Origin: Methylococcus sp. Mc7
Lineage (GTDB): Bacteria; Pseudomonadota; Gammaproteobacteria; Methylococcales; Methylococcaceae
NCBI RefSeq assembly: GCF_019285515.1
Contig: NZ_CP079095.1
Coordinates: 434,001 to 498,000 of the forward strand
Length of the DNA: 64,000 bases
Reading direction: 5' to 3'
The notes beneath the pieces were generated by a model that saw nothing but the letters and a program-made list of their open reading frames with translations, ran no database searches and was not told the DNA's origin. Positions within the stretch are counted from its first letter, which is position 1. Every line of letters begins with the position of its first letter. Positions 4,896-55,444 of the stretch are shown piece after piece. Position numbers and translations under genes: made by a program.

Positions 4896-7800
4896 TCGGC
4901 ATCCGGTAACCCGTAAGGGATCGATACAGGAACCTGTCGACCTGATCGCCGAGCCGGGTCAGGCCTTTGAGTTCGAGCTGGACGAAAAAGGCGGTGTTGG
5001 ACGTGCTGTCGTTAAAGTTATTCTGATTGACACCGTTCAGGTATTCGCGCCCGATCACGGTGAAACGCCAGCAGCAGGTTTCATGCTCCAGACCGACGAA
5101 GCTCTCCAGCGTTCTGTTGTAGAGCAGCGAATACTGCCAGCGCCCGATGAAATGCCAGTCCTTGAAGAACGGAATGCGGAACGACACGTCGGTATTGTTC
5201 AGTGCGCTGGAGAGCTGGTCGGCCTGGTTGGGGATGGGTTGGCGGTAGCGGTAGCTCAGATTGAGCAGATTGTTCTGGCGGTCGTTGTACTGCAGCCCGG
5301 CGGCGCCGCGTTCGATGCGGCCGCTGTCCGGCGACACCTGCCCTTCCGCTCCGATCGACCAGTTTTCCGTCACCCTGGCGTCCACCTGGCTGACGACGTT
5401 GGCGAAACTCTGGTTGTAGGTATCGTAGGTCGTCTGGCCCTGGTCGGTGCCCAGGTCGATGCCCAGGGGATTGGTGCCGTAGGGGTTCACCAGGGTCACG
5501 GACGGATCGTTGATGAAGAACACCTTCCCCAGGCTGGCTTTGAACCGTTCCAAGCCGCTGTCGTGGTCGATGAAACGGGAAGTCAGGCCGACGGTCACCT
5601 GATTCATGTCCGCCAGACGGTCGGCACCCGCGAAACGGTTGGTGCGGAACAACTGGTAGTACGTGAAGTCGTAGTAGTTGCTGTCGAAGATCGGATAGTC
5701 GTTCTGGTTGATCTTCGGCACATAGGTATAGAACACGCGGGGTTCCAGCGTCTGCCGCAGCGAGGCGGATCCCAGCTCGAAATCCCGGTCGAAAACCAGG
5801 CCGCTGTCCACCGAAAAGATGGGAGCGACGCGATTCAGGCTGCTGTCGGTCCCCGCCGCCTGGTCCTGGAGCATATAGGTCGTGTTCTGCAAAGCCACGC
5901 TGGGAATGACGAAACTGCCGGGGGACTGGATGGGATAGGAAATCTGCGGCCGGACGTTCAGACGCTGGCCTTTGACGTTGCTGCCGCCATGGTCGAAGTT
6001 CACGACCTCCGCGTTGGTCTGGAAGCGGAACCCTGAATCGCCGATCTGCGCACCGTAATTCCCCCTGAGGCTCGGCAGGCGGTAATAAGGGGTCTGCTCC
6101 GGCGGAATCGACGGATCGACGTTCTGGTAATAGTCGGTCAGCAGCCTGACCGAACCGTTCGAATACATATAGTCCGCATACGCCTGGCTCTGGATGAAGG
6201 TGTTGGAGTTAAGGCCGAGGTTGTTGTTCACCTGATTGAGATAGAGAGGATCGGAAACGTAGTTCAGGTCGACCAGCGTGAACAGGTTTTCGGTCCACCG
6301 CCCCATGGCATCGAAGCCAGCCTGCCCCCGAGTCTGTTTCTCTTGAGTGTCCTCCGGCATGATCTCCCCCAGCAGGCGAATCCGCTGGTGTTCGGTCAGC
6401 CAGCGGAAATCGCCGCCAAACAAAGGCCCGCGGTTCGTCATCTCCCGTGCCGTCACCGTCAGATCATAATCGGGCGCCAGGTTGAAATAGTATGGAACGG
6501 TGAGATTGTAGCCGTTGGTTCCCGACCAACCCGGCGTCGGCGACAGGAATCCGGATTGCCGCCGGTCGTCCACCGGGAAATCCATATAGGGAGTGTAGAA
6601 CATCGGCACCCCCTTGAACTCCATCCAGGCATGGGTGGCTTCCCCTCGTCCGGTTTCCTTGTCGATCGCGACCTCGTCGGCATGCAGCATCCAGTCCGTA
6701 TTCCCCGGCGGGCAGGTGGTGTAGGTGGCGGTTTCGTAGCGCGAACGGGTATCGCTGTCCATGTGCGCGACCCGGGCGACGCCGCGCGACGGCATGGTCT
6801 CGACGATGAACTGGCTATTACGCAGTACGCCCTTGTCGTCCTCCATCCGCAGGAACGCGGTGTCGCTCGAAAAGGCCAGGCCTTTTTCGCGGTAGAACAC
6901 GCTGCCGCGGGCATTCACCGTGTCGGCTTCGGTGTTGAGGCTCAGGAAATCGCCCTTCACGTGCTGATCGTAACGCGTCACCTCGGCGCTGCCGGTGAAG
7001 GTCGCGACCTCCTGATCGTCCATTTCGCCGTAATCCCCGTGGACTTCCACCGGCGCCCGTTTGCGGGCGAGCCGGTCTTTCGAGGTGAGGAGGAAATCCT
7101 TGGCCGCATCGGACTCGCGCTTTCCGCGGGCGCAGGTTCCCGCCCACGGATTACCCGGCATCATGCCGAGCAGGCGGTCGAAGCGCTGTTCATCGTATTC
7201 CGTGATCGTCGTCGCCTGGGCCCAGTCCTCGGGGGGCTCGCCGGCGGCGCCGACCGGCCGCGCCACCCCTCGGGGGTCCGGCCCCACCAGGTTGCAGTCC
7301 CAGCTCCTGCTCTCCTTCTGCGGTCGGCAGGTCCAGCCGGTCGGCGCGCTCGGAGCATGGGCGGCGACGGGCTGGGGCAAGGCCGCCTCCTGCCGCACCG
7401 ACACGGTTCCCGAGGGGACGAAGCGCGAGGCGGCCAGCGGCGTTTCCGGCCGGGGCGCCCTGGCGGGGGACGGCGCTTCCGGCTCGCCGGCCGCCACCTC
7501 GGGTACCGCCTTTTCCGTCTCCGCCGACTCGCCTTCCTCATCCTCCTCTGCGTCGGCGGGCCTGGCCGCCATCCCGGCTGGCGGTGCGGGCTCGGCGGGG
7601 CGAACCGGAGGCGGCACCGGCCTGGGCTCGGATTTGGCCACCGGCGCCATTTCGGCCGGCGGGGACGGAGGAGCCGTGGCGGGCGCGGCACGGCGCGACT
7701 CCGGCAAAGCCGCCTCCCTCGGCGCTATCGGCCGGGCAGGCGGGGCCTTCGGCCCGGGCTCTGCCGGCGTTTCCGCACCGCCGTCCTTTCTCTTGGCCAC

Positions 7801-24282: not shown

Positions 24283-24300
24283 TTGGCATATGTAATGCTT
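24283..24300 (+). promoter_or_regulatory. Sigma-54 type -24/-12 promoter for narK
   Basis: TTGGCATATGTAATGCTT has the invariant GG and GC dinucleotides separated by exactly ten bases, plus the flanking TTGGCA and TGCTT of the RpoN consensus. The same arrangement precedes the porin gene at 35549. Transcription should start near 24310, a few bases before the first leader hairpin. Confidence 0.72.
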
Positions 24301-24315
24301 GAATCCTTCTGAAAC

Positions 24316-24403
24316 CTGCGCCAATGGCGGCGCGGCACCAGGACAAAGGCGTCTTGGGCTTTTGCGGAATACCTTCCGCGAAGCCTAAGACGCTTTTTTT
24401 TTT
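24316..24403 (+). promoter_or_regulatory. ANTAR-target (NasT) antitermination leader of narK
   Basis: Two hairpins with six-base loops followed by an intrinsic terminator. Hairpin 1 (24316-24335) has loop AATGGC; hairpin 2 (24338-24357) has loop AAAGGC; both loops have A at position 1 and G at position 4, as in known ANTAR-protein targets. The terminator stem begins inside the loop of hairpin 2 (24349), so hairpin 2 and the terminator cannot coexist. NasT binding to the hairpins should block termination when nitrate is present. NasT itself is encoded at 34337. Confidence 0.85.
24349..24403 (+). terminator. Conditional intrinsic terminator in the narK leader
   Basis: Long stem GCGTCTT...AAGACGC continuing inward through GGGCTT/AAGCC and GCGGAA/TTCCGC, followed by ten T residues at 24394-24403. 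It overlaps the second ANTAR hairpin and would stop transcription before narK unless antitermination occurs. Confidence 0.85.
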
Positions 24404-24459: not shown

Positions 24460-25734
24460 ATGAACTTCAAAGAATTCAAGCAGGCCGGACATTGGCCGAC
24501 CCTGCTTTCCGCCTTTCTCTATTTCGACGTGTCCTTCATGGTCTGGGTGATGCTCGGACCGCTTTCCCTTTACATCACCAAGGACTTGGCGCTGCCGCTC
24601 GAGGAGAAGTTCACCATCGTCGCCATACCCATCCTCTCCGGCGCGGTGTTCCGCATCATCCTGGGTTCCATGGCCGACCATATCGGCCCCAAGCTGACCG
24701 GCGTCCTGGCCCAGTTGCTGGTGATCCTGGGCCTCGCCTATGTGTTCGTGTTCGGCCTGCACTCCAAGCCGGAGGTCGAAATCCTGGGGCTGCTGCTGGG
24801 CGTGGCCGGCGCCAGCTTCGCCGTGGCCCTGCCGCAGGCCAGCCGCTGGTATCCGCCCAAATTCCAGGGCGTGGTGATGGGCATCGCCGGCGCCGGCAAC
24901 ATGGGCGTGGTGCTCGATTCCATGATCGTGCCCTGGCTGGCCGAGAAGTTCGGCTGGCAGGCGGTGTTCGGCTTCCTGCTCATTCCCTTGCTGATCGTCC
25001 TGATCGTCTACGCGGTGCTGGTGAAGGATGCCCCGGACAAGCGCACGCCGGTCAGCCTGGCGAACTATGCCGCGGTAATGAAGGACCCCGACGCCTGGTG
25101 GTTCATGTTCTTCTATTCCATCACCTTCGGCGGCTTCGTCGGTCTCGGCAATGCCCTGCCGCTGTACTTCACCAACTGGTATCACGTCTCCGGCATCGCT
25201 GCCGGCATGATGGTCGCCATCGTGGTGTTCGCCGGCTCGATGTTCCGCCCAGTCGGCGGCTACCTGGCCGACCGCATCGGCGGCATCCGCGCCCTCCAGG
25301 TCCTGTTCGTGGTGGTGTCCCTGTCCTATCTGGCGATCTCGTTCATGCCGGAAGGCCCCGCGCCGCAAGCGCCGGGCAACGCCAAGGTGGCCGGCTGGGG
25401 CCTGTGGGAACTGCCGGCGGAAGGCTGGGGTGCGGTCGCCATCTTCTTCGCCGGCACTCTGGCGCTGGGTATGGGCAACGGTTCGGTGTTCCAACTGGTA
25501 CCGCTGCGCTTCCGCAAAGAAATCGGGGTGGTCACCGGCCTGGTCGGTTGCGCCGGTGGCGTGGGCGGCTTCTTCCTGGCGAAGACCTTGGGGCTGTCGT
25601 GGGAAATACAGCACGGCTTCGCGCTCGGGTTCAGCGTGTTCGCCGTACTCCCGCTGCTCGGCCTGGGCGGGCTGGTGATGGTGAGGAAACGCTGGCGCAC
25701 GACCTGGGGCGCGGTTTCCGGAGCACAGGTCTGA
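24460..25734 (+). CDS. narK: Nitrate/nitrite transporter, NarK/NasA type MFS
   Basis: Inner-membrane major facilitator protein of 424 residues that imports nitrate (and possibly exports nitrite). It has the family features: RIILGSMADHIGPK with the substrate-binding Arg in the second helix, and two nitrate signature motifs, GIAGAGNMGVV (helix 5) and GLVGCAGGVGGF (helix 11), where glycine-rich helices line the pore. It is the first gene of the nitrate assimilation operon and lies behind a sigma-54 promoter and an ANTAR leader. No nitrate ABC transporter is encoded in the window, so this is the visible uptake system. Confidence 0.94.
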   Translation: MNFKEFKQAGHWPTLLSAFLYFDVSFMVWVMLGPLSLYITKDLALPLEEKFTIVAIPILSGAVFRIILGSMADHIGPKLTGVLAQLLVILGLAYVFVFGLHSKPEVEILGLLLGVAGASFAVALPQASRWYPPKFQGVVMGIAGAGNMGVVLDSMIVPWLAEKFGWQAVFGFLLIPLLIVLIVYAVLVKDAPDKRTPVSLANYAAVMKDPDAWWFMFFYSITFGGFVGLGNALPLYFTNWYHVSGIAAGMMVAIVVFAGSMFRPVGGYLADRIGGIRALQVLFVVVSLSYLAISFMPEGPAPQAPGNAKVAGWGLWELPAEGWGAVAIFFAGTLALGMGNGSVFQLVPLRFRKEIGVVTGLVGCAGGVGGFFLAKTLGLSWEIQHGFALGFSVFAVLPLLGLGGLVMVRKRWRTTWGAVSGAQV

Positions 25735-25759: not shown

Positions 25760-27547
25760 ATGACCGTTCCCGGCCAACCCGTCCTCCGTGCCGCCTTCGT
25801 CTCCCTGCAGGGACGGCGCGAAGACAACCAGGACTTTGCCGGCATCGCCGAGCCGCCGCCACGGGATGCCGCTGCGCGCGGCTTCGTGGCGGCCGTGGCC
25901 GACGGCATCGGCGGCGCCCGTGGCGGCCGGGTCGCGGCGGAAGTGTCGGTGCGCAGCTTCATGGAAGCCTACTACGGCCTGTCCGAAACCTTGGGCATGG
26001 AACAGCTTCTGGACCGTTGCCTGGGCTCGGTCAACCGCTGGGTGCATGCCATGGGCCGGCACGATCCCGAGCTGGCGCACATGGGCACGACCTTCAGCGG
26101 CGTGATCTTCCGCGGCCGCCGCGCCTATCTGGTCCACGTGGGCGACTCCCGCGTCTACCGCCTGCGCGGCGAGGAAACCGAGCTGCTGACTTCGGACCAC
26201 ACCCTGAGCGGGCCGGGGCTGGACCACGTGCTGTACCGCGCGGTCGGGCTGGACCCCGGCCTCCGGATCGATTACAGCGTGTACCCGCTGGAACCGCACG
26301 ACCGTTTTCTGCTCTGCAGCGACGGGCTGCACGGCAGCCTCGAACAGGAACGGATCAGGGAGATCCTGCAGGAACGGGCCACCCCCGAAACCACGGCCGA
26401 GGCGCTGGCACTCCGGGCATTCGAGCAGGGCAGCCAGGACAATATCACCGCCCTGGTGGTGGACGTCATCGCCCTGCCGCCGGCCGAACGGCAGGCTTTG
26501 CGCCTTGCCATCGAGTCCCTGCCGCTGCTGGAACTGCCCAAGGCCGGCGAAGTGGTGGACGCCTACCGCCTGGAGCGGCTGCTCTCCTCGGGGCGCTACA
26601 GCGCGCTGTTTCTCGCTGCCGACACTCTGGGCCAGGACAAGCCGGTGGTGGTGAAGTTTCCGCATCCTCGCGTCGCCAGCGAACGGGAATACTACGACGC
26701 CTTCGTGCGCGAGGCCTGGATCGGCGCCCGGGTGAAAAGCCCCTGGGTCGGCGAGATCCTGGAGCAGGTCCCCGGCCGCCAGAGCCGGCTTTATTCGGTG
26801 ATGCCGTTTTATCCCGGTACCACCCTGGAGCACGAGCTGGCGCACCGGCCGCGCGTCGGCCTGGAAGCCGGTATCGATCTCGCCCTGAAGCTGTGCAAGG
26901 CGGTGCATGCGCTGCACCGCCAGCAGATCGTCCACCGCGACATCAAGCCGGACAACGTCCTGCTGGAGCCGGAAGGCGGCCTCAAGCTGCTGGACCTCGG
27001 CATCGCCCGGTTGCCGGCCTGGGACGAGAATCGGGCCGATCCCATCCCCGGCACCCCGAGCTACATGGCGCCGGAAATGTTCCAGGGCGAGCGCGGCAGC
27101 GTCGCCACCGACGTGTTCGCCCTCGGCGTCACTCTGTACCGCATGTTCGCCGGCGGCGCCTACCCCTATGGCGAGATCGAGCCGTTCAGCACGCCGCGCT
27201 TCGGCAACCCGAAGCCGCTGACCGCCCACCGCCCGGACCTCCCGGCCTGGCTGGACGCCGTGCTGGCCCGCGCCGTCGCGGCCGATGCGGAACAGCGGCC
27301 GGCGGATGCCGTGGAACTGGCCTACGAACTGGAAGCCGGCCTGGAAAAAGGCGGCGGCAGGCGCTCACCCCATCGCGCCCCGCCGCTGTACGAACGCAAT
27401 CCCCTGCTGTTCTGGAAAGCCGTCGCGGCGCTGCTGCTGGTCCTGCTGGCCATGGCCGGCCTGGGCCTGTCACTGCCGTCCTGCCCGCCTGCTGGAACGG
27501 CGTCCCCCCACAATCCCTTGATTCACGATAACGGAGACTCGCGATGA
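25760..27547 (+). CDS. PP2C phosphatase-Ser/Thr kinase fusion, membrane-anchored
   Basis: A 595-residue protein holding opposing activities. Residues 8-235 form a PP2C phosphatase (RREDNQDF, VADGIGG, VGDSRVYRL, CSDGLHG, SQDNITALVV, the metal-binding aspartates). Residues 265-540 form a Hanks-type kinase: VVVKF with the ATP lysine, HRDIKPDNVLLE as catalytic loop, DLG in place of DFG, and the TPSYMAPEMF activation segment. A single transmembrane helix (ALLLVLLAMAGLGLSL) near residue 560 leaves both domains cytoplasmic. The stop overlaps the nirB start (ATGA). Fusions of this type sit between narK and nirB in other nitrate clusters, suggesting a post-translational control of uptake or reduction, but the target is unknown. 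Confidence 0.9.
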   Translation: MTVPGQPVLRAAFVSLQGRREDNQDFAGIAEPPPRDAAARGFVAAVADGIGGARGGRVAAEVSVRSFMEAYYGLSETLGMEQLLDRCLGSVNRWVHAMGRHDPELAHMGTTFSGVIFRGRRAYLVHVGDSRVYRLRGEETELLTSDHTLSGPGLDHVLYRAVGLDPGLRIDYSVYPLEPHDRFLLCSDGLHGSLEQERIREILQERATPETTAEALALRAFEQGSQDNITALVVDVIALPPAERQALRLAIESLPLLELPKAGEVVDAYRLERLLSSGRYSALFLAADTLGQDKPVVVKFPHPRVASEREYYDAFVREAWIGARVKSPWVGEILEQVPGRQSRLYSVMPFYPGTTLEHELAHRPRVGLEAGIDLALKLCKAVHALHRQQIVHRDIKPDNVLLEPEGGLKLLDLGIARLPAWDENRADPIPGTPSYMAPEMFQGERGSVATDVFALGVTLYRMFAGGAYPYGEIEPFSTPRFGNPKPLTAHRPDLPAWLDAVLARAVAADAEQRPADAVELAYELEAGLEKGGGRRSPHRAPPLYERNPLLFWKAVAALLLVLLAMAGLGLSLPSCPPAGTASPHNPLIHDNGDSR

Positions 27548-33035: not shown

Positions 33036-34340
33036 ATGGACGACTCTCAAGAAACAGCCGTCGGCAACCTCATCGAGAAACCCCGGCTGACACTGGGCTT
33101 CATTCCGCTCACGGACTGCGCTCCGCTCGTCATCGCCCTGGAAAAGGGCCACTTCCGCCGGCACGGTTTGGACGTCGTGCTGTCGCGCCAGCCGTCCTGG
33201 GCCGCCATCCGGGATAAGGTCGCGGCCGGCATGCTGGACGGCGCCCATATGCTCGCGCCGATGCCGATCGCCACCACCCTCGGCCTGGGCGGCGTACGCA
33301 AGGCCACCATCGCGCCGATGTCGCTCGATCTGAACGGCAATGCCGTGACGGTATCCAACGCCCTGTACCGGCGGCTTACGGGCGTGGCTGGCGAAGAACC
33401 GTCACAGCGGCCGGTTTCGGCCCGCGGCCTTCGGCGGTTGCTGGAACTGGACTCCGGCGGCGAAGCTGTGCGGTTCGCCACGGTATTCCCCTTCTCCTCG
33501 CACAACTACCTGCTGCGCTACTGGCTGGCGGCCGCCGGCGTGGACCCGGACCGCCACGTCGGCATGACGGTCATTCCACCACCGCAGATGCCCCGTTGCC
33601 TGGCGGCGGGCGAGATTTCCGGCTACTGCGCGGGAGAACCCTGGAATGCCTACGCGGTCGCGCACGGCATCGGCCGAGTGCTGATCACCGATTATGAAAT
33701 CTGGAACAACAGCCCCGAGAAGGTGCTGGGTGTCAACCAGGACTGGGCCGAACGGCATCCCAATACCCTGCGCGCTCTCCTGATGGCCTTGCTGGATGCC
33801 GCGCAATGGCTCGACCTGCCCAGGAACCGCATGGAAGCCGCCGCCCTCCTCGCGAGTCCCGACTATGTCGGCGTTCCGGCGGACATCCTCCAGATGTCCA
33901 TGACGGGCTCGTTTCAATACGCGGCGGACGAAGCGGCCGTATCCCTACCCGACTTCAACGTATTCCACCGCTATGCCGCCACCTTCCCCTGGCGCTCCCA
34001 CGCCCTGTGGTTCCTGACCCAGATGCTGCGCTGGGGGCAGATCGCCGAACCCGTCGACCTGCATGCGGTCGCGGAACAGGTGTACCGTCCCGACCTCTAC
34101 CGGGACGCCGCGGCTGCCCTCCGGATGCCCTGCCCGTCCGCAGACTACAAGTGCGAGGGCGTCCATGCCGTGCCATGGACGCTGGACACTCGCGCCTCGC
34201 CCTTGGTCATGGGGCCGGACCTGTTTTTCGACGGGACCGCCTTCGACCCGGCCGATCCCATCGCCTATCTCGCCGGCTTCGAACTCCACCGCATGCGGGT
34301 GAAGCTCGACGATCTCGCACGCGCGGGGAACTCGCCGTGA
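33036..34340 (+). CDS. nasS: Nitrate sensor NasS (NrtA-like, cytoplasmic)
   Basis: Homologue of the nitrate-binding proteins NrtA/NasF but without a signal peptide, so it is expected to remain in the cytoplasm as the sensor that holds NasT until nitrate or nitrite binds. The 434-residue product has the family features LTLGFIPLTDCAPLVIALEKG, GAHMLAPMPIATTLG and GYCAGEPWNAYA. Its stop overlaps the nasT start (GTGA), as expected for partners made in fixed ratio. Confidence 0.93.
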   Translation: MDDSQETAVGNLIEKPRLTLGFIPLTDCAPLVIALEKGHFRRHGLDVVLSRQPSWAAIRDKVAAGMLDGAHMLAPMPIATTLGLGGVRKATIAPMSLDLNGNAVTVSNALYRRLTGVAGEEPSQRPVSARGLRRLLELDSGGEAVRFATVFPFSSHNYLLRYWLAAAGVDPDRHVGMTVIPPPQMPRCLAAGEISGYCAGEPWNAYAVAHGIGRVLITDYEIWNNSPEKVLGVNQDWAERHPNTLRALLMALLDAAQWLDLPRNRMEAAALLASPDYVGVPADILQMSMTGSFQYAADEAAVSLPDFNVFHRYAATFPWRSHALWFLTQMLRWGQIAEPVDLHAVAEQVYRPDLYRDAAAALRMPCPSADYKCEGVHAVPWTLDTRASPLVMGPDLFFDGTAFDPADPIAYLAGFELHRMRVKLDDLARAGNSP

Positions 34341-34912
34341 GCCTTCGCATCATGCTAGTGGACGAGGACGACGACCGCAGCGCCGTCCTGCAGCAGGCGC
34401 TGGCCGAAGCCGGCTACCGCGTCGTGGCACGCTTGAGAAACGAGCAGAACCTTGCGCTCGCGGTCGGCGAACACAAGCCGGACATGGTGATCATCGACAT
34501 GGAAGCCCCCGGCCGCGACACCCTGGAACAGATGCGCGAGGTCAGCCGGGACAATCCCAAGCCGATCGTGCTGTTTTCCAACAACCGCGACAGCGAATAC
34601 ATCCGCCAGGCGGTACAAGCGGGCGTCAGCGCCTACGTCGTCGACGGACTGAGGCGGGAACGGATACTTCCCATCGTCGAGGTCGCCATGGCCCGCTTCA
34701 GCGAGTTCCAGGTGCTCCGGCGCGAACTCGAAGACACCCGCGCCCAGCTCGCCGACCGCAAGCTGGTGGAGAAGGCCAAGGGCCTGCTCATGAAGCACCG
34801 CGGCCTCAGCGAAGACGAGGCCTACCAGTCGCTGCGCAAGACCGCGATGGCCAGGAACCAGCGCATCGCCGACGTCGCCCGCACTTTGCTGGCGCTGGAA
34901 GATTTTCTCTGA
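34337..34912 (+). CDS. nasT: Nitrate-responsive antiterminator NasT (ANTAR)
   Basis: RNA-binding antiterminator of 191 residues. Residues 1-120 are a receiver-like domain (MLVDEDDDRS; IIDMEAPGRDT), and the C-terminal ANTAR domain (about 130-190) includes KLVEKAKGLLMKHRGLSEDE. In NasST systems nitrate frees NasT from NasS, and NasT binds the two-hairpin leader of target mRNAs. Matching leaders occur in this window upstream of narK (24316) and the porin (35593). Translation starts at GTG 34337, overlapping nasS. Confidence 0.94.
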   Translation: MSLRIMLVDEDDDRSAVLQQALAEAGYRVVARLRNEQNLALAVGEHKPDMVIIDMEAPGRDTLEQMREVSRDNPKPIVLFSNNRDSEYIRQAVQAGVSAYVVDGLRRERILPIVEVAMARFSEFQVLRRELEDTRAQLADRKLVEKAKGLLMKHRGLSEDEAYQSLRKTAMARNQRIADVARTLLALEDFL

Positions 34913-34996: not shown

Positions 34997-35353
34997 ATGA
35001 GCGTAGCGCTAAGACTTTACGAACAACTGACCGAAGCGGGCGAGGACAAGACGCGCGCCAAACTGATCGCGGAAGCCTTCGAGCATCTGGAGGACCGCTA
35101 TCCCCAGTTGAAGGACGTGGCGACCCAGGGACAGGTGCGCGAGACCGAATTGCGGCTGCAGAAGGAGATCAAGGAGGTCGAGGCGACGCTCCGGCTGGAG
35201 ATCGAAAAGACCCGCCTGGAAATCCGCGAGGTGGAGGTACGATTGACACAAGCCATCCATCGCCAGACCCTCTGGGTGGTCGGTTCCGTCGGCGCCGTGG
35301 TGGGATTGATCCGGCTGCTGGAATGGTTCCTCACCCATCTGCCAAACCCCTAG
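34997..35353 (+). CDS. DUF1640-like coiled-coil membrane protein
   Basis: A 118-residue protein: an N-terminal amphipathic part (RLYEQLTEAGEDKTRAKLIAEAFEHL), a long charged coiled coil (RETELRLQKEIKEVEATL and on, about residues 50-88), and one transmembrane helix near the C-terminus (LWVVGSVGAVVGLIRLLEWF). This layout resembles the DUF1640/CCDC90 group, small membrane proteins of unknown role that often occur in many copies in methanotroph and related genomes. It lies between nasT and the porin leader with its own upstream gap, so a part in nitrate metabolism is not implied. Confidence 0.72.
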   Translation: MSVALRLYEQLTEAGEDKTRAKLIAEAFEHLEDRYPQLKDVATQGQVRETELRLQKEIKEVEATLRLEIEKTRLEIREVEVRLTQAIHRQTLWVVGSVGAVVGLIRLLEWFLTHLPNP

Positions 35354-35548
35354 CGCAGATGTCTCTCTTCGCTTCCGCTTCCACTCGCGCCGAACCGGCA
35401 CCAGCGATTGACCGTTCCCTGACCGGCGGACGGTGACCGCCACAAATGGCGGCGCGACGCCCCGATATCGTGCTCCGGCCCCGCACCGCGATTCCGCCCC
35501 GCTACTCTCAGCCCATAAGAAACAGATACTTGCATCTATTCGACTCCA
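35354..35548. other. Upstream region of the porin promoter
   Basis: About 195 bases with no gene I can support. It lies immediately upstream of a sigma-54 promoter and so should contain activator-binding sites, but no clear NtrC-type palindrome was recognised. Confidence 0.4.
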
Positions 35549-35566
35549 TTGGCACCGATAGTGCTT
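35549..35566 (+). promoter_or_regulatory. Sigma-54 type -24/-12 promoter for the porin gene
   Basis: TTGGCACCGATAGTGCTT has GG and GC separated by ten bases and the TGGCAC -24 element in full. It parallels the narK promoter at 24283. The start of transcription should lie near 35576, just before the leader hairpins. Confidence 0.75.
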
Positions 35567-35592
35567 TGGTAATGACTGGATAAAGCGGTATC

Positions 35593-35676
35593 CCGCGCCA
35601 ACGGCGGCGCGGACCTTTGAGACAAAGGCGTCTCGCGGTTTTCGGAATGTTCCGGAAATCGCGGACGCTTTTTTTT
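35593..35676 (+). promoter_or_regulatory. ANTAR-target (NasT) antitermination leader of the porin gene
   Basis: Hairpin 1 (35593-35612) is CCGCGCC/GGCGCGG around the loop AACGGC; hairpin 2 (35619-35634) is GAGAC/GTCTC around the loop AAAGGC. Both loops have A at position 1 and G at position 4. The downstream terminator begins within loop 2 (35628). The design is the same as in the narK leader; the sequences outside the loops differ, so this is conserved structure and not simple duplication. It places the porin in the NasT regulon. Confidence 0.85.
35628..35676 (+). terminator. Conditional intrinsic terminator in the porin leader
   Basis: Outer stem GCGTC with GACGC, continuing inward through CGCGG/ATCGCG and TTTTCGGA/TCCGGAAA, followed by eight T residues at 35669-35676. 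It overlaps the second ANTAR hairpin and precedes the porin ATG by 39 bases. Confidence 0.82.
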
Positions 35677-35715
35677 ATGCGCGAACGTAAAACAACCATT
35701 CCGGGGGACACGAAA

Positions 35716-37278
35716 ATGGCTCAGACGAATTCGAACCAGACCAAGGCAGCGCCCGTATCTTCCGGCGCCATCACCCGCCGGTCGAAGACCGCCGGCACGG
35801 CCCTTTTTTCGGCTGTGCTGGCTTTGTCCGATGCCGCTTGGGGAGCGGAGGCGGACAAACAGACCAAGCCCCCAAGCGCCTTGCCCACAGAATGGGCCGG
35901 GCCGGCGGACACCCGGATCAAACTGGAAGTGTTCGACCGCGCCCGTGGCGAATTCGCCGACTGGTTCGGCAATCCCCTGGTCAAGGGAAAGCCGGTGCCC
36001 AAGGACTACAACTACAGCTTCGTGGGCAATAAGTTCCAGTTGGGCCTTAGGGTGACCGGAGAACCCTTCGAGGCCTTCGCCCAGTTCCAGGACACCTACA
36101 TCGGCGGCCTGCCGACCAATGGCGTCGGTATAGGCGCCGCGTATTACGCCAGCACGCCGTTGAGCACCCAGAACGGCGCCTTCCTGCGGCAGGGCTGGCT
36201 GCGGCTGAAGGATCTGTTCGGCGTCAACGGCCTGTATCTCAACGGCGGCCGCCAACTGTTTTCCGACGGCCAGCAGGGTCTCGCCCGCCACAAGAACCTG
36301 CGCTGGATCCAGGACTACCGCATCGCCCAGCGCCTGATCGGCCCGTTCGAGTACACCCACGCCGGCCGCAGCTTCGACGGCGGCAGCGTCGGCTACCTGA
36401 CGGACGACCTGGAGGCGGTCGGCTTCGGTTTCATGCCCACCTTCGGCGGCTTCGAGTCCAACGGCATGCCGACCATCGGCAAGATCAACGTGGCGGGGGC
36501 GAGCCTCAGCCTCCGGGATTCGGAAAACGTCGGCAATACCATCGGGCGCCTGTCCTGGTACTACTACTCGGACGACCGGGACATCCTGTTCGTCGACAAC
36601 CGTCCCCTCGCGGCGCGCGAAAAAGCGGTGGGCCAAGGCTCGGCGATCCACACCATCGGTGGCCACCTGGCGCATGTCGAGGAGATCGGCCCCGGCGTGG
36701 CGGACGGGACGGTCTACGCTTTCGGCCAGGTCGGCAACTGGCAGAACCAGAGTCAGGCGGCGTGGGCCTTCGGCGTCGAGGCCGGCTACCAGTTCAGGGA
36801 GGTCTGGGCCGCCCCCTGGCTGCGGGCGGGCATCAACAGCGGCTCGGGCGACGATAACCCGGACGACGATACCCACGGCACCTTCTTCCAGGTGCTGCCC
36901 ACGGCCTGGCTGTATGCCCAGTTCCCGTTCTACAACATGATGAACAACCAGGACGTCTTCGTGCAGGGCATCCTGACGCCCGACCCCAAGCTCAGCCTGA
37001 GGCTGGATTTCCACGCATTGCGGGTCAACGCCGCCCAGGACTTCGTCTATTCAGGCTCGGGCGCGACCAACGACACCGTGTTCGGCTATGCGGGCACACC
37101 GACGGGCGGTGCCAGCAACCTGGCCTATCTCACCCACGTGATGATCAACCTGAAGCCGATCGACCATCTGGCCTTCAACCTGTTTTACGGCCATGCTTTC
37201 GGCCAGAGCATCATCAACAACCAGTACGACGGCAAACAGGGCAATTACGGTTTTCTGGAGGCCATCGTATCGTTCTGA
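35716..37278 (+). CDS. Outer-membrane porin, alginate-export-like family
   Basis: A 520-residue exported beta-barrel. An unusually long N-terminus precedes the hydrophobic signal region (TALFSAVLALSDAAWGAEA). The mature part resembles the alginate-export (AlgE-type) porins: alternating strands such as YLNGGRQLFSDGQQGLARHKNLRW, FQVLPTAWLYAQFPFY and a C-terminal strand ending in aromatic Phe. ATG 35716 follows GGGGGA. Because it lies behind a sigma-54 promoter and an ANTAR leader identical in plan to those of narK, I infer a role in nitrate or nitrite passage through the outer membrane. The family has varied substrates and no sequence feature proves nitrate. Confidence 0.8.
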   Translation: MAQTNSNQTKAAPVSSGAITRRSKTAGTALFSAVLALSDAAWGAEADKQTKPPSALPTEWAGPADTRIKLEVFDRARGEFADWFGNPLVKGKPVPKDYNYSFVGNKFQLGLRVTGEPFEAFAQFQDTYIGGLPTNGVGIGAAYYASTPLSTQNGAFLRQGWLRLKDLFGVNGLYLNGGRQLFSDGQQGLARHKNLRWIQDYRIAQRLIGPFEYTHAGRSFDGGSVGYLTDDLEAVGFGFMPTFGGFESNGMPTIGKINVAGASLSLRDSENVGNTIGRLSWYYYSDDRDILFVDNRPLAAREKAVGQGSAIHTIGGHLAHVEEIGPGVADGTVYAFGQVGNWQNQSQAAWAFGVEAGYQFREVWAAPWLRAGINSGSGDDNPDDDTHGTFFQVLPTAWLYAQFPFYNMMNNQDVFVQGILTPDPKLSLRLDFHALRVNAAQDFVYSGSGATNDTVFGYAGTPTGGASNLAYLTHVMINLKPIDHLAFNLFYGHAFGQSIINNQYDGKQGNYGFLEAIVSF

Positions 37279-37290
37279 GCGTCAGCACCC

Positions 37291-37509
37291 ATGACTCTGG
37301 AATCCCTCCTGACCTGCCCCGTCTGTGGCTTTGCCAGACGGGAAACCATGCCGACCGATGCCTGCCTGTACTTCTACGAATGCACCGGCTGCGGAACCCT
37401 GCTCCGCCCGAAACCGGGGGATTGCTGCGTATTCTGTTCCTACGGTTCGGTCAAATGCCCGCCGATGCAGGAACAGGAGGGGGCGTGCGGTTGCGGCTCA
37501 GGCGCCTGA
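37291..37509 (+). CDS. Small Cys-rich zinc-ribbon protein (GDCCVFCS family)
   Basis: A 72-residue protein with eleven cysteines, including CPVCG, CTGCG, GDCCVFCSYGSVKCPP and a C-terminal CGCG. The segment ETMPTDACLYFYECTGCG is one I recognise from a family of small, widespread proteins of unknown function that are often near metal-resistance genes. It probably binds zinc or another soft metal. It begins 12 bases after the porin stop and may share its transcript. The 3' end overlaps the convergent ferredoxin gene by 12 bases. Confidence 0.8.
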   Translation: MTLESLLTCPVCGFARRETMPTDACLYFYECTGCGTLLRPKPGDCCVFCSYGSVKCPPMQEQEGACGCGSGA

Positions 37510-55294: not shown

Positions 55295-55353
55295 CGATTT
55301 CTCCGTATAATGTCTTGCCGGGCTGGCAGACCCCGGCGGTAGGGTTGCGCCTC

Positions 55354-55416
55354 CACGCATCCCGGCCGGCGACCGCCCCTTATGGGACGGCACCCCACCG
55401 GCCGTGACGATGCGTG
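55354..55416 (-). promoter_or_regulatory. Structured rpsB leader hairpin (candidate S2 autoregulatory element)
   Basis: On the rpsB transcript three stacked stems can form: an 8-bp base stem (CACGCATC with GATGCGTG), a 7-bp middle stem (CGGCCGG with CCGGCCG), and an apical 7-bp hairpin (CCGUCCC with GGGGCGG) capped by an AUAA loop. It lies between the promoter and the start codon. In E. coli the rpsB leader is the target of S2 autogenous repression; by position this is a likely counterpart. Confidence 0.6.
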
Positions 55417-55444
55417 TGTGGTGTGTTGCCAAATAAAGCTGTGC

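Follow-up and report, generated by a model that had tools for sequence, protein, structure and literature searches.

The DNA analysed here (referred to as the window) covers bases 434001–498000, 64,000 nt, of the one-contig genome of Methylococcus sp. Mc7 (4,003,396 bases) and harbours a nitrate assimilation cluster in the order narK, a PP2C/Ser-Thr-kinase fusion, nirB, nirD, nasA, nasS and nasT, followed by orf118, a leader and a gene encoding an outer-membrane porin. The first gene, narK (24460–25734, +), encodes a nitrate/nitrite transporter of the MFS type (TIGR00886, 261.9 bits, under the cut-off of 311.7) and is preceded by a leader at 24283–24403 (+) consisting of a sigma-54-type promoter, a narK RNA (Rfam RF03032, 43.9 bits, over the cut-off) and a terminator. 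The fusion of a PP2C phosphatase and a Ser-Thr kinase is situated between narK and nirB at 25760–27547, and a homologue is kept in the nas clusters of several genera. NirB alone in the cluster passed a curated NCBIfam cut-off (949.9 against 578.35 bits), while the other genes were named from their Pfam domains, their best matches and where they lie. The gene nasS (33036–34340, +) encodes an NMT1_2-type protein (PF13379, 297.4 bits), presumed from its family, its place and its position adjoining nasT to be the nitrate/nitrite sensor, and nasT (34337–34912, +), whose GTG start overlaps the nasS stop, encodes a response-regulator and an ANTAR domain (PF00072, 55.3 bits; PF03861, 73.6 bits) and is the presumed reader of the leaders. 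A search of the genome revealed NasT as its only ANTAR protein, so the genes expected of a NasS-NasT regulon are in place, nasS together with nasT and no second ANTAR protein found.

Between nasT and the porin leader lies orf118 (34997–35353), a charged protein of 118 aa with no family match over cut-off, which among the loci searched occurs only in the five porin-bearing Methylococcus genomes. The porin gene itself is located at 35716–37278 (+) with an ATG at 35716, and a gene for a GDCCVxC-domain protein of 72 aa (37291–37509), starting 12 nt after the porin stop, may be co-transcribed with it and follows it in four of the five Methylococcus genomes with the porin. No role in the switch was seen for orf118 or the GDCCVxC protein in the loci searched. 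Further downstream in the window a t44 RNA was found at 55344–55438 (-, 81.6 bits).

When analysing the region upstream of the porin gene a sigma-54-type promoter, TTGGCAC-N6-TGCT, was identified at 35549–35565 (+), with the same 12-nt spacing of GG and GC as the consensus used for comparison, TGGCAC-N5-TTGC. The RNA start is predicted from the sequence to lie near 35576, ~0.66 kb downstream of the end of nasT, where an earlier reading made from the sequence alone (the sequence-only reading) had put the distance at about 0.7 kb. The promoter scored 13.5 out of 15, 99% of 3000 random stretches of 150 nt scoring at most 13.0. Without mismatches, TTGGCAYNNNNNNTGCT could be found in only two places in the window, the narK leader and the porin leader; when one mismatch was allowed there were four matches against 1.69 expected, a number reached in 11 of 100 shuffles and unremarkable alone.

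Two ANTAR-type hairpins follow the promoter, hairpin 1 (35593–35612, +) with a 7-bp stem and the loop AACGGC (35600–35605) and hairpin 2 (35618–35635, +) with a 6-bp stem and the loop AAAGGC (35624–35629). According to the accessible parts of the literature an ANTAR target consists of two hairpins whose hexaloops carry A1 and G4 (PMC3369931, PMC8934654), the minimal target having been redefined as one hexaloop (PMC8934654), and both loops of the porin leader are of this kind. Folding proposed an intrinsic terminator with a T8 run at 35627–35676 (+; T8 at 35669–35676), the 5' arm of which overlaps hairpin 2 and uses six of the eight tested hairpin-2 nucleotides. The terminator part accounts for -30.9 kcal/mol, and the fold of 35580–35680 reaches -52.2 kcal/mol (z -5.7), with none of 200 shuffles as good. 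Since the 3' half of hairpin 2 lies inside the terminator in the best fold, hairpin 2 and the intrinsic terminator exclude each other. Promoter, both A1/G4 hairpins and the terminator overlapping hairpin 2 were thus all found where the sequence-only reading had placed them, on the same plan as in the narK leader. A weak match to Rfam P11, an annotated Pseudomonas small RNA, was also seen at 35538–35669 (23.1 bits, cut-off 70), and as the P11 consensus contains UUGGCAC and GACAAAGGCGUCC, this small RNA could belong to the ANTAR leaders as well.

An ANTAR-family covariance search, which had been proposed along with that reading, was performed by scanning the genome with the narK RNA model RF03032. 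Among the 13 matches listed at E up to 10 the narK leader came first with 43.9 bits and the porin leader second with 32.7 bits (E 3.4e-4 for the 4.0-Mb genome), followed by a site of 21.7 bits. The resemblance exceeds chance, but the score lies under the gathering cut-off of 43.2, probably because ~11 additional nt separate promoter and hairpin 1 when compared with the narK leader, and the porin leader was filed as narK-like and not as a member of the Rfam family. To avoid circularity we trained another covariance model, R1, on 21 leaders taken from the present genome (its narK leader) and from relatives, none of which precedes a porin. The underlying alignment A1 comprises 21 of 30 narK-RNA loci; L052 and L053, which duplicate L051, were dropped, as were L070 and L071 for their long inserts and L075 as a chance-like match, and the porin leaders L002, L065, L067 and L077 were deliberately kept out. 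In a genome scan with R1 the held-out porin leader was matched at 35591–35634 with 47.7 bits (E 9.6e-14), the best site after the narK and porin leaders reaching 22.3 bits. The stem pairing is conserved among the 21 non-porin leaders, with a covariation score of 0.385 against 0.144 when shuffled and none of 500 shuffles as high, and among the porin leaders both arms of the hairpin-1 stem vary between the genera g1, g2 and g7.

A search for the narK RNA in 61 genomes (this one and 60 others) at E up to 0.01 gave 36 matches in 26 genomes, 30 of which were examined for the gene that follows. This was narK in 12 cases, a gene for a NasS-type binding protein in nine, nirB in four and the porin in four, while at the remaining locus (L075) none of the nine proteins taken from the window as queries was found after the narK RNA. 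Within this set of genomes the leader is thus almost always a sign of nitrate genes or of the porin.

Extending the search to 251 genomes of the order revealed the porin in 39 and an R1 leader (E up to 1e-4) in 59, 35 of the latter having no porin match, and in a sample of 397 genomes of the phylum a porin match at E 1e-20 was found only in the genome of the window itself. These numbers agree with the suggestion that the porin is not a standard part of nas operons. A manual comparison of coordinates showed 12 of the 39 porins to have a leader on the same strand ending at most 300 nt before the matched stretch, and they represent six genera: g1 (G000, G002, G003, G004 and G005), g2 (G006 and G020), g7 (G011), g8 (G012 and G021), g3 (G007) and g13 (G017). 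Fewer than 0.001 such pairs are expected by chance, as estimated from the density of the listed matches. In all 12 the terminator overlaps hairpin 2, involving six to eight of the eight tested nucleotides and with T runs from 4 upward (for G004, G006 and G020 tested on the records L036, L034 and L035). The sigma-54 scores are 13.2–13.5 in g1, 13.0 in g2 and 13.2 in g13; those of g8 (12.0, with the site 118 nt away), g7 (10.5) and g3 (9.5) are no better than random (mean 10.4, 95% 12.0), leaving g7 and g3 without a convincing site and g8 with a weak and distant one. The narK and porin genes are divergently oriented in Methylotetracoccus and Methylolobus, and both carry their own ANTAR leader; on record L034 the leaders lie at 5330–5373 (-) and 5758–5802 (+) and on L035 at 5215–5258 (-) and 5809–5853 (+).

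Another ten porins are found within or next to nas/nrt genes (G008, G010, G033, G023, G028, G499, G060, G541, G619 and G643). In G008 one leader is followed by nasS-narK-kinase-nirB-nirD-nasA-nasT-porin, and in Methylohalobius (L037) nrtA-nrtB-nrtC-porin comes after a weak leader of 17.4 bits, the ATPase matching ntrCD with 335 bits, over the cut-off of 291.8. In G643 the porin is a fragment lying at the end of a contig, with a leader of 18.1 bits and a NasS-type gene upstream. The porin of G033 is preceded by a weak leader of 19.1 bits with a sigma-54 score of 13.2 and no clear T run; this genome stands outside the 12 and is counted as nas-linked by its neighbours. Records from Deltaproteobacteria and Binatia (L041 and L038) show porin, leader and nirB in a row. 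A 13th case, G585, encodes a remote porin (L148, 188–2161; 27% identity over 275 residues), and ~0.2 kb upstream of its 535-residue frame a T8 terminator can be identified together with a two-hairpin leader (20.3 bits) and the sigma-54-like site TTGGCAC-N6-TGCC; judged from these motifs it is possibly a third porin lineage under nitrate antitermination. No nas link was seen in the flanks of 16 of the 39 porin genomes, several of them on short contigs and some with flanks ending at a contig end (G013, G024, G030, G031, G034, G036, G464, G487, G504, G513, G523, G531, G573, G591, G603 and G641).

The porin consists of 520 aa, begins with what by eye is a signal-like segment and matches PF13372 (Alginate_exp) with 62.7 bits, over the gathering cut-off of 25.2, the best stretch being residues 335–494. 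It is the only PF13372 porin found in the genome and is 93–97% identical to the porins of four other Methylococcus genomes; no match at E 1 was obtained among PDB sequences. A structure was modelled with AlphaFold2 from an alignment of 33 rows (A2), from which L040 (internal stop in the matched stretch), L032, L033, L046, L049 and L050 (partial or doubtful) and L009, L034, L035 and L036 (copies of included rows) had been left out. The model has a mean pLDDT of 78.9 and a pTM of 0.78, residues 1–55 being under 50, and 18 long strands could be counted in its DSSP line. In a Foldseek search AlgE chains came out on top (3rbh_C, 11% identity, with TM values of 0.72 for the target and 0.58 for the query length), followed by MOMP, Occ/OprD and chitoporin. 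The porin is thus predicted to form an 18-strand AlgE-like barrel with 10–12% identity to AlgE. The description of the sequence-only reading, alginate-export-like, is borne out by the Pfam family and the predicted fold, but at this level of identity "alginate export" is a family label only. A crude strand-alternation rule, applied to the strands without loops, gave 12 positive and 12 negative lumen-facing residues for the window porin and a predicted net negative lumen for a second nas-linked porin group. Judged by this crude rule, the predicted lumen charge lends no support to anion selectivity.

A tree of the porins was constructed with 45 rows, of which 25 were scored as nas-linked, 17 as unlinked and three excluded as unseen, with G585 and G643 absent and G033 labelled leader-bearing although it stands outside the 12. 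In the tree the nas-linked porins fall into separate groups, with porins neighbouring SsuA-like genes between them, and the nas label requires at least four changes, gains or losses. A single origin of the nas-linked porins was rejected when 22 rows of two nas-linked groups, named after the tree had been seen, were held together (p-AU 2.8e-43). In six genomes of family f8, probably Methylomonadaceae, a sister group of porins is located before a gene for an SsuA-like binding protein with 27–29% identity to NasS (L133, L134, L136, L137, L139 and L147). In L133, the one set annotated, the best matches were SsuA_fam for the binding protein, SaoP for the permease and ntrCD for the ATPase, each score staying under its cut-off, and the locus also contains OsmC-like and acyl-CoA-dehydrogenase-like genes. 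Another porin subgroup is followed by proteins of 376 and 363 aa (L135, 9262–10392, and L143, 2463–3554) that are 54% identical to each other and have no Pfam match over cut-off, a faint match to glycosyl hydrolase 88 being seen in one of them.

The porin is very probably a second target of NasS-NasT nitrate antitermination. Its place in the NasT regulon, suggested by the sequence-only reading, is supported by the held-out match with R1, the leader in 12 genomes of six genera, the terminator overlap and NasT as the sole ANTAR protein, all of them sequence evidence. Under nitrogen limitation the sigma-54 promoter would produce the leader RNA. When nitrate is lacking NasS would hold NasT, the terminator would form and transcription would halt before the porin gene, while in the presence of nitrate or nitrite NasT would be freed, presumably bind the two hexaloop hairpins and block the terminator, and the porin would then be made alongside NarK, NirBD and NasA. 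The barrel, of the AlgE/Occ type with 18 strands, would most likely raise the permeability of the outer membrane for nitrate and/or nitrite and so keep the inner-membrane transporter, NarK here and NrtABC in some relatives, from being starved. We give this reading as a whole, NasT antitermination of the porin jointly with nitrate or nitrite as its cargo, a probability of roughly 0.6.

General porins are usually held responsible for letting nitrate cross the outer membrane. If the proposed reading is true, the outer membrane is a regulated step of nitrate assimilation and the nitrate ANTAR regulon extends to it, through a porin that shares the RNA switch of the nitrate transporter, is conserved in six genera and is combined with inner-membrane transporters of different types. 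The porin gene could be tested in a cultured laboratory methanotroph. More tentatively, and with somewhat less than even confidence, a dedicated nitrate/nitrite channel of the outer membrane may be built into the nitrate assimilation of many methanotrophs and some deltaproteobacterial lineages, in the same regulon as the inner-membrane transporter and drawn from at least two lineages of the barrel family (perhaps a third, G585).

The nitrate/nitrite channel of the sequence-only reading is our best guess and comes from the gene company, narK, nrtABC and nirB-nasA, with which it fits; the predicted charge-balanced lumen and the six relatives beside an SsuA-like protein do not speak for it. These same two observations agree with a porin in the NasT regulon having some other cargo, for example molybdate for the reductase, or being a broad pore that raises general permeability on nitrate, although in L133 the ATPase next to the SsuA-like binding protein is best with the nitrate-type ntrCD, under cut-off. 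Such a cargo appears unlikely, if worth serious consideration, given that the porin is repeatedly paired with different nitrate transporters and reductases (NarK, NrtABC, NirB-NasA) in distant lineages. That the porin mainly lets excess nitrite from nitrate reduction out of the periplasm is improbable as a separate explanation; accessible parts of the literature describe nitrite export as possible for NarK-type proteins (PMC6759348) and nitrite build-up in M. capsulatus (PMC10623323), but nothing in this analysis separates the two directions. It overlaps with uptake of nitrate or nitrite through the porin, since a passive pore would serve both directions. The terminated leader could also act mainly as a small RNA titrating NasT, with porin control secondary, as for an ANTAR-binding RNA of Enterococcus, and the leader does weakly resemble P11; we consider this very unlikely as the leader is found directly before the porin in six genera, each time with the terminator overlapping hairpin 2, which is the plan of antitermination in cis. 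A chance resemblance or a functionless copy of the narK leader, to which the Rfam score below cut-off might point, was rejected on the held-out 47.7 bits and the conservation in 12 genomes of six genera with stems changed on both sides.

In the open-access literature no paper placing a porin in a NasT regulon or describing a nitrate porin was found, most subscription papers being outside the scope of the search, and the parts covered of PMC4831470, PMC12316311 and PMC6714388 contain nothing on the window porin. For M. capsulatus Bath at 37°C the transcript of the nitrate transporter is given as 74-fold, and those of nasA and nirD as 12-fold, lower on ammonium than on nitrate, and with nitrate the nasA and nirD transcripts were less abundant at 42°C than at 37°C too, so effects of nitrate and of growth are mixed in these data; "porin", "outer membrane" and "alginate" are absent from the main text (PMC10623323). 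In Bradyrhizobium, going by the accessible part of PMC6759348, where the word "porin" is absent, NasT leaders have been observed upstream of nirA and of a coxS-like gene, and further ones are predicted for narK and bjgb. The narK operon with its predicted leader rose, and did not fall, without nasT under denitrification, so that activation cannot be taken for granted from the presence of a leader, and the outer-membrane protein gene blr1311 was up 2.3-fold without nasT (PMC6759348).

When compared with known systems, OpdQ of Pseudomonas aeruginosa resembles the window porin in that its amount rises with nitrate but, as far as the accessible text goes, belongs to the OprD family and is controlled by NarXL in low oxygen and not by an ANTAR leader (PMC4694141). 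The Kuenenia porin KSMBR1_3177 is raised under nitrogen (ammonium) limitation and is thought by its authors to aid the influx of a nitrogen source, but it has a BBP2 domain and serves another nitrogen source, and no ANTAR leader is mentioned in the part of PMC7438415 covered. The alginate exporter AlgE (PDB 3rbh) shares the PF13372 family and is the best PDB fold match to the modelled porin; at 10–12% identity it differs from the window porin, which sits with nitrate genes. The NasS-NasT/nasA system of Paracoccus denitrificans (PMC3795266, PMC5424462), where NasT binds a nasA leader RNA (PMC3795266), likewise has, in the accessible texts, nasS and nasT and a hairpin leader before the target but no porin, a word absent from both main texts. 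The narK RNA (RF03032) shares with the porin leader the sigma-54-type promoter, hairpin 1, hairpin 2 and the terminator overlap, the porin leader differing in its longer spacer between promoter and hairpin and in having an outer-membrane porin as target, and what is proposed here is a known switch extended to a new kind of target and not a new kind of system.
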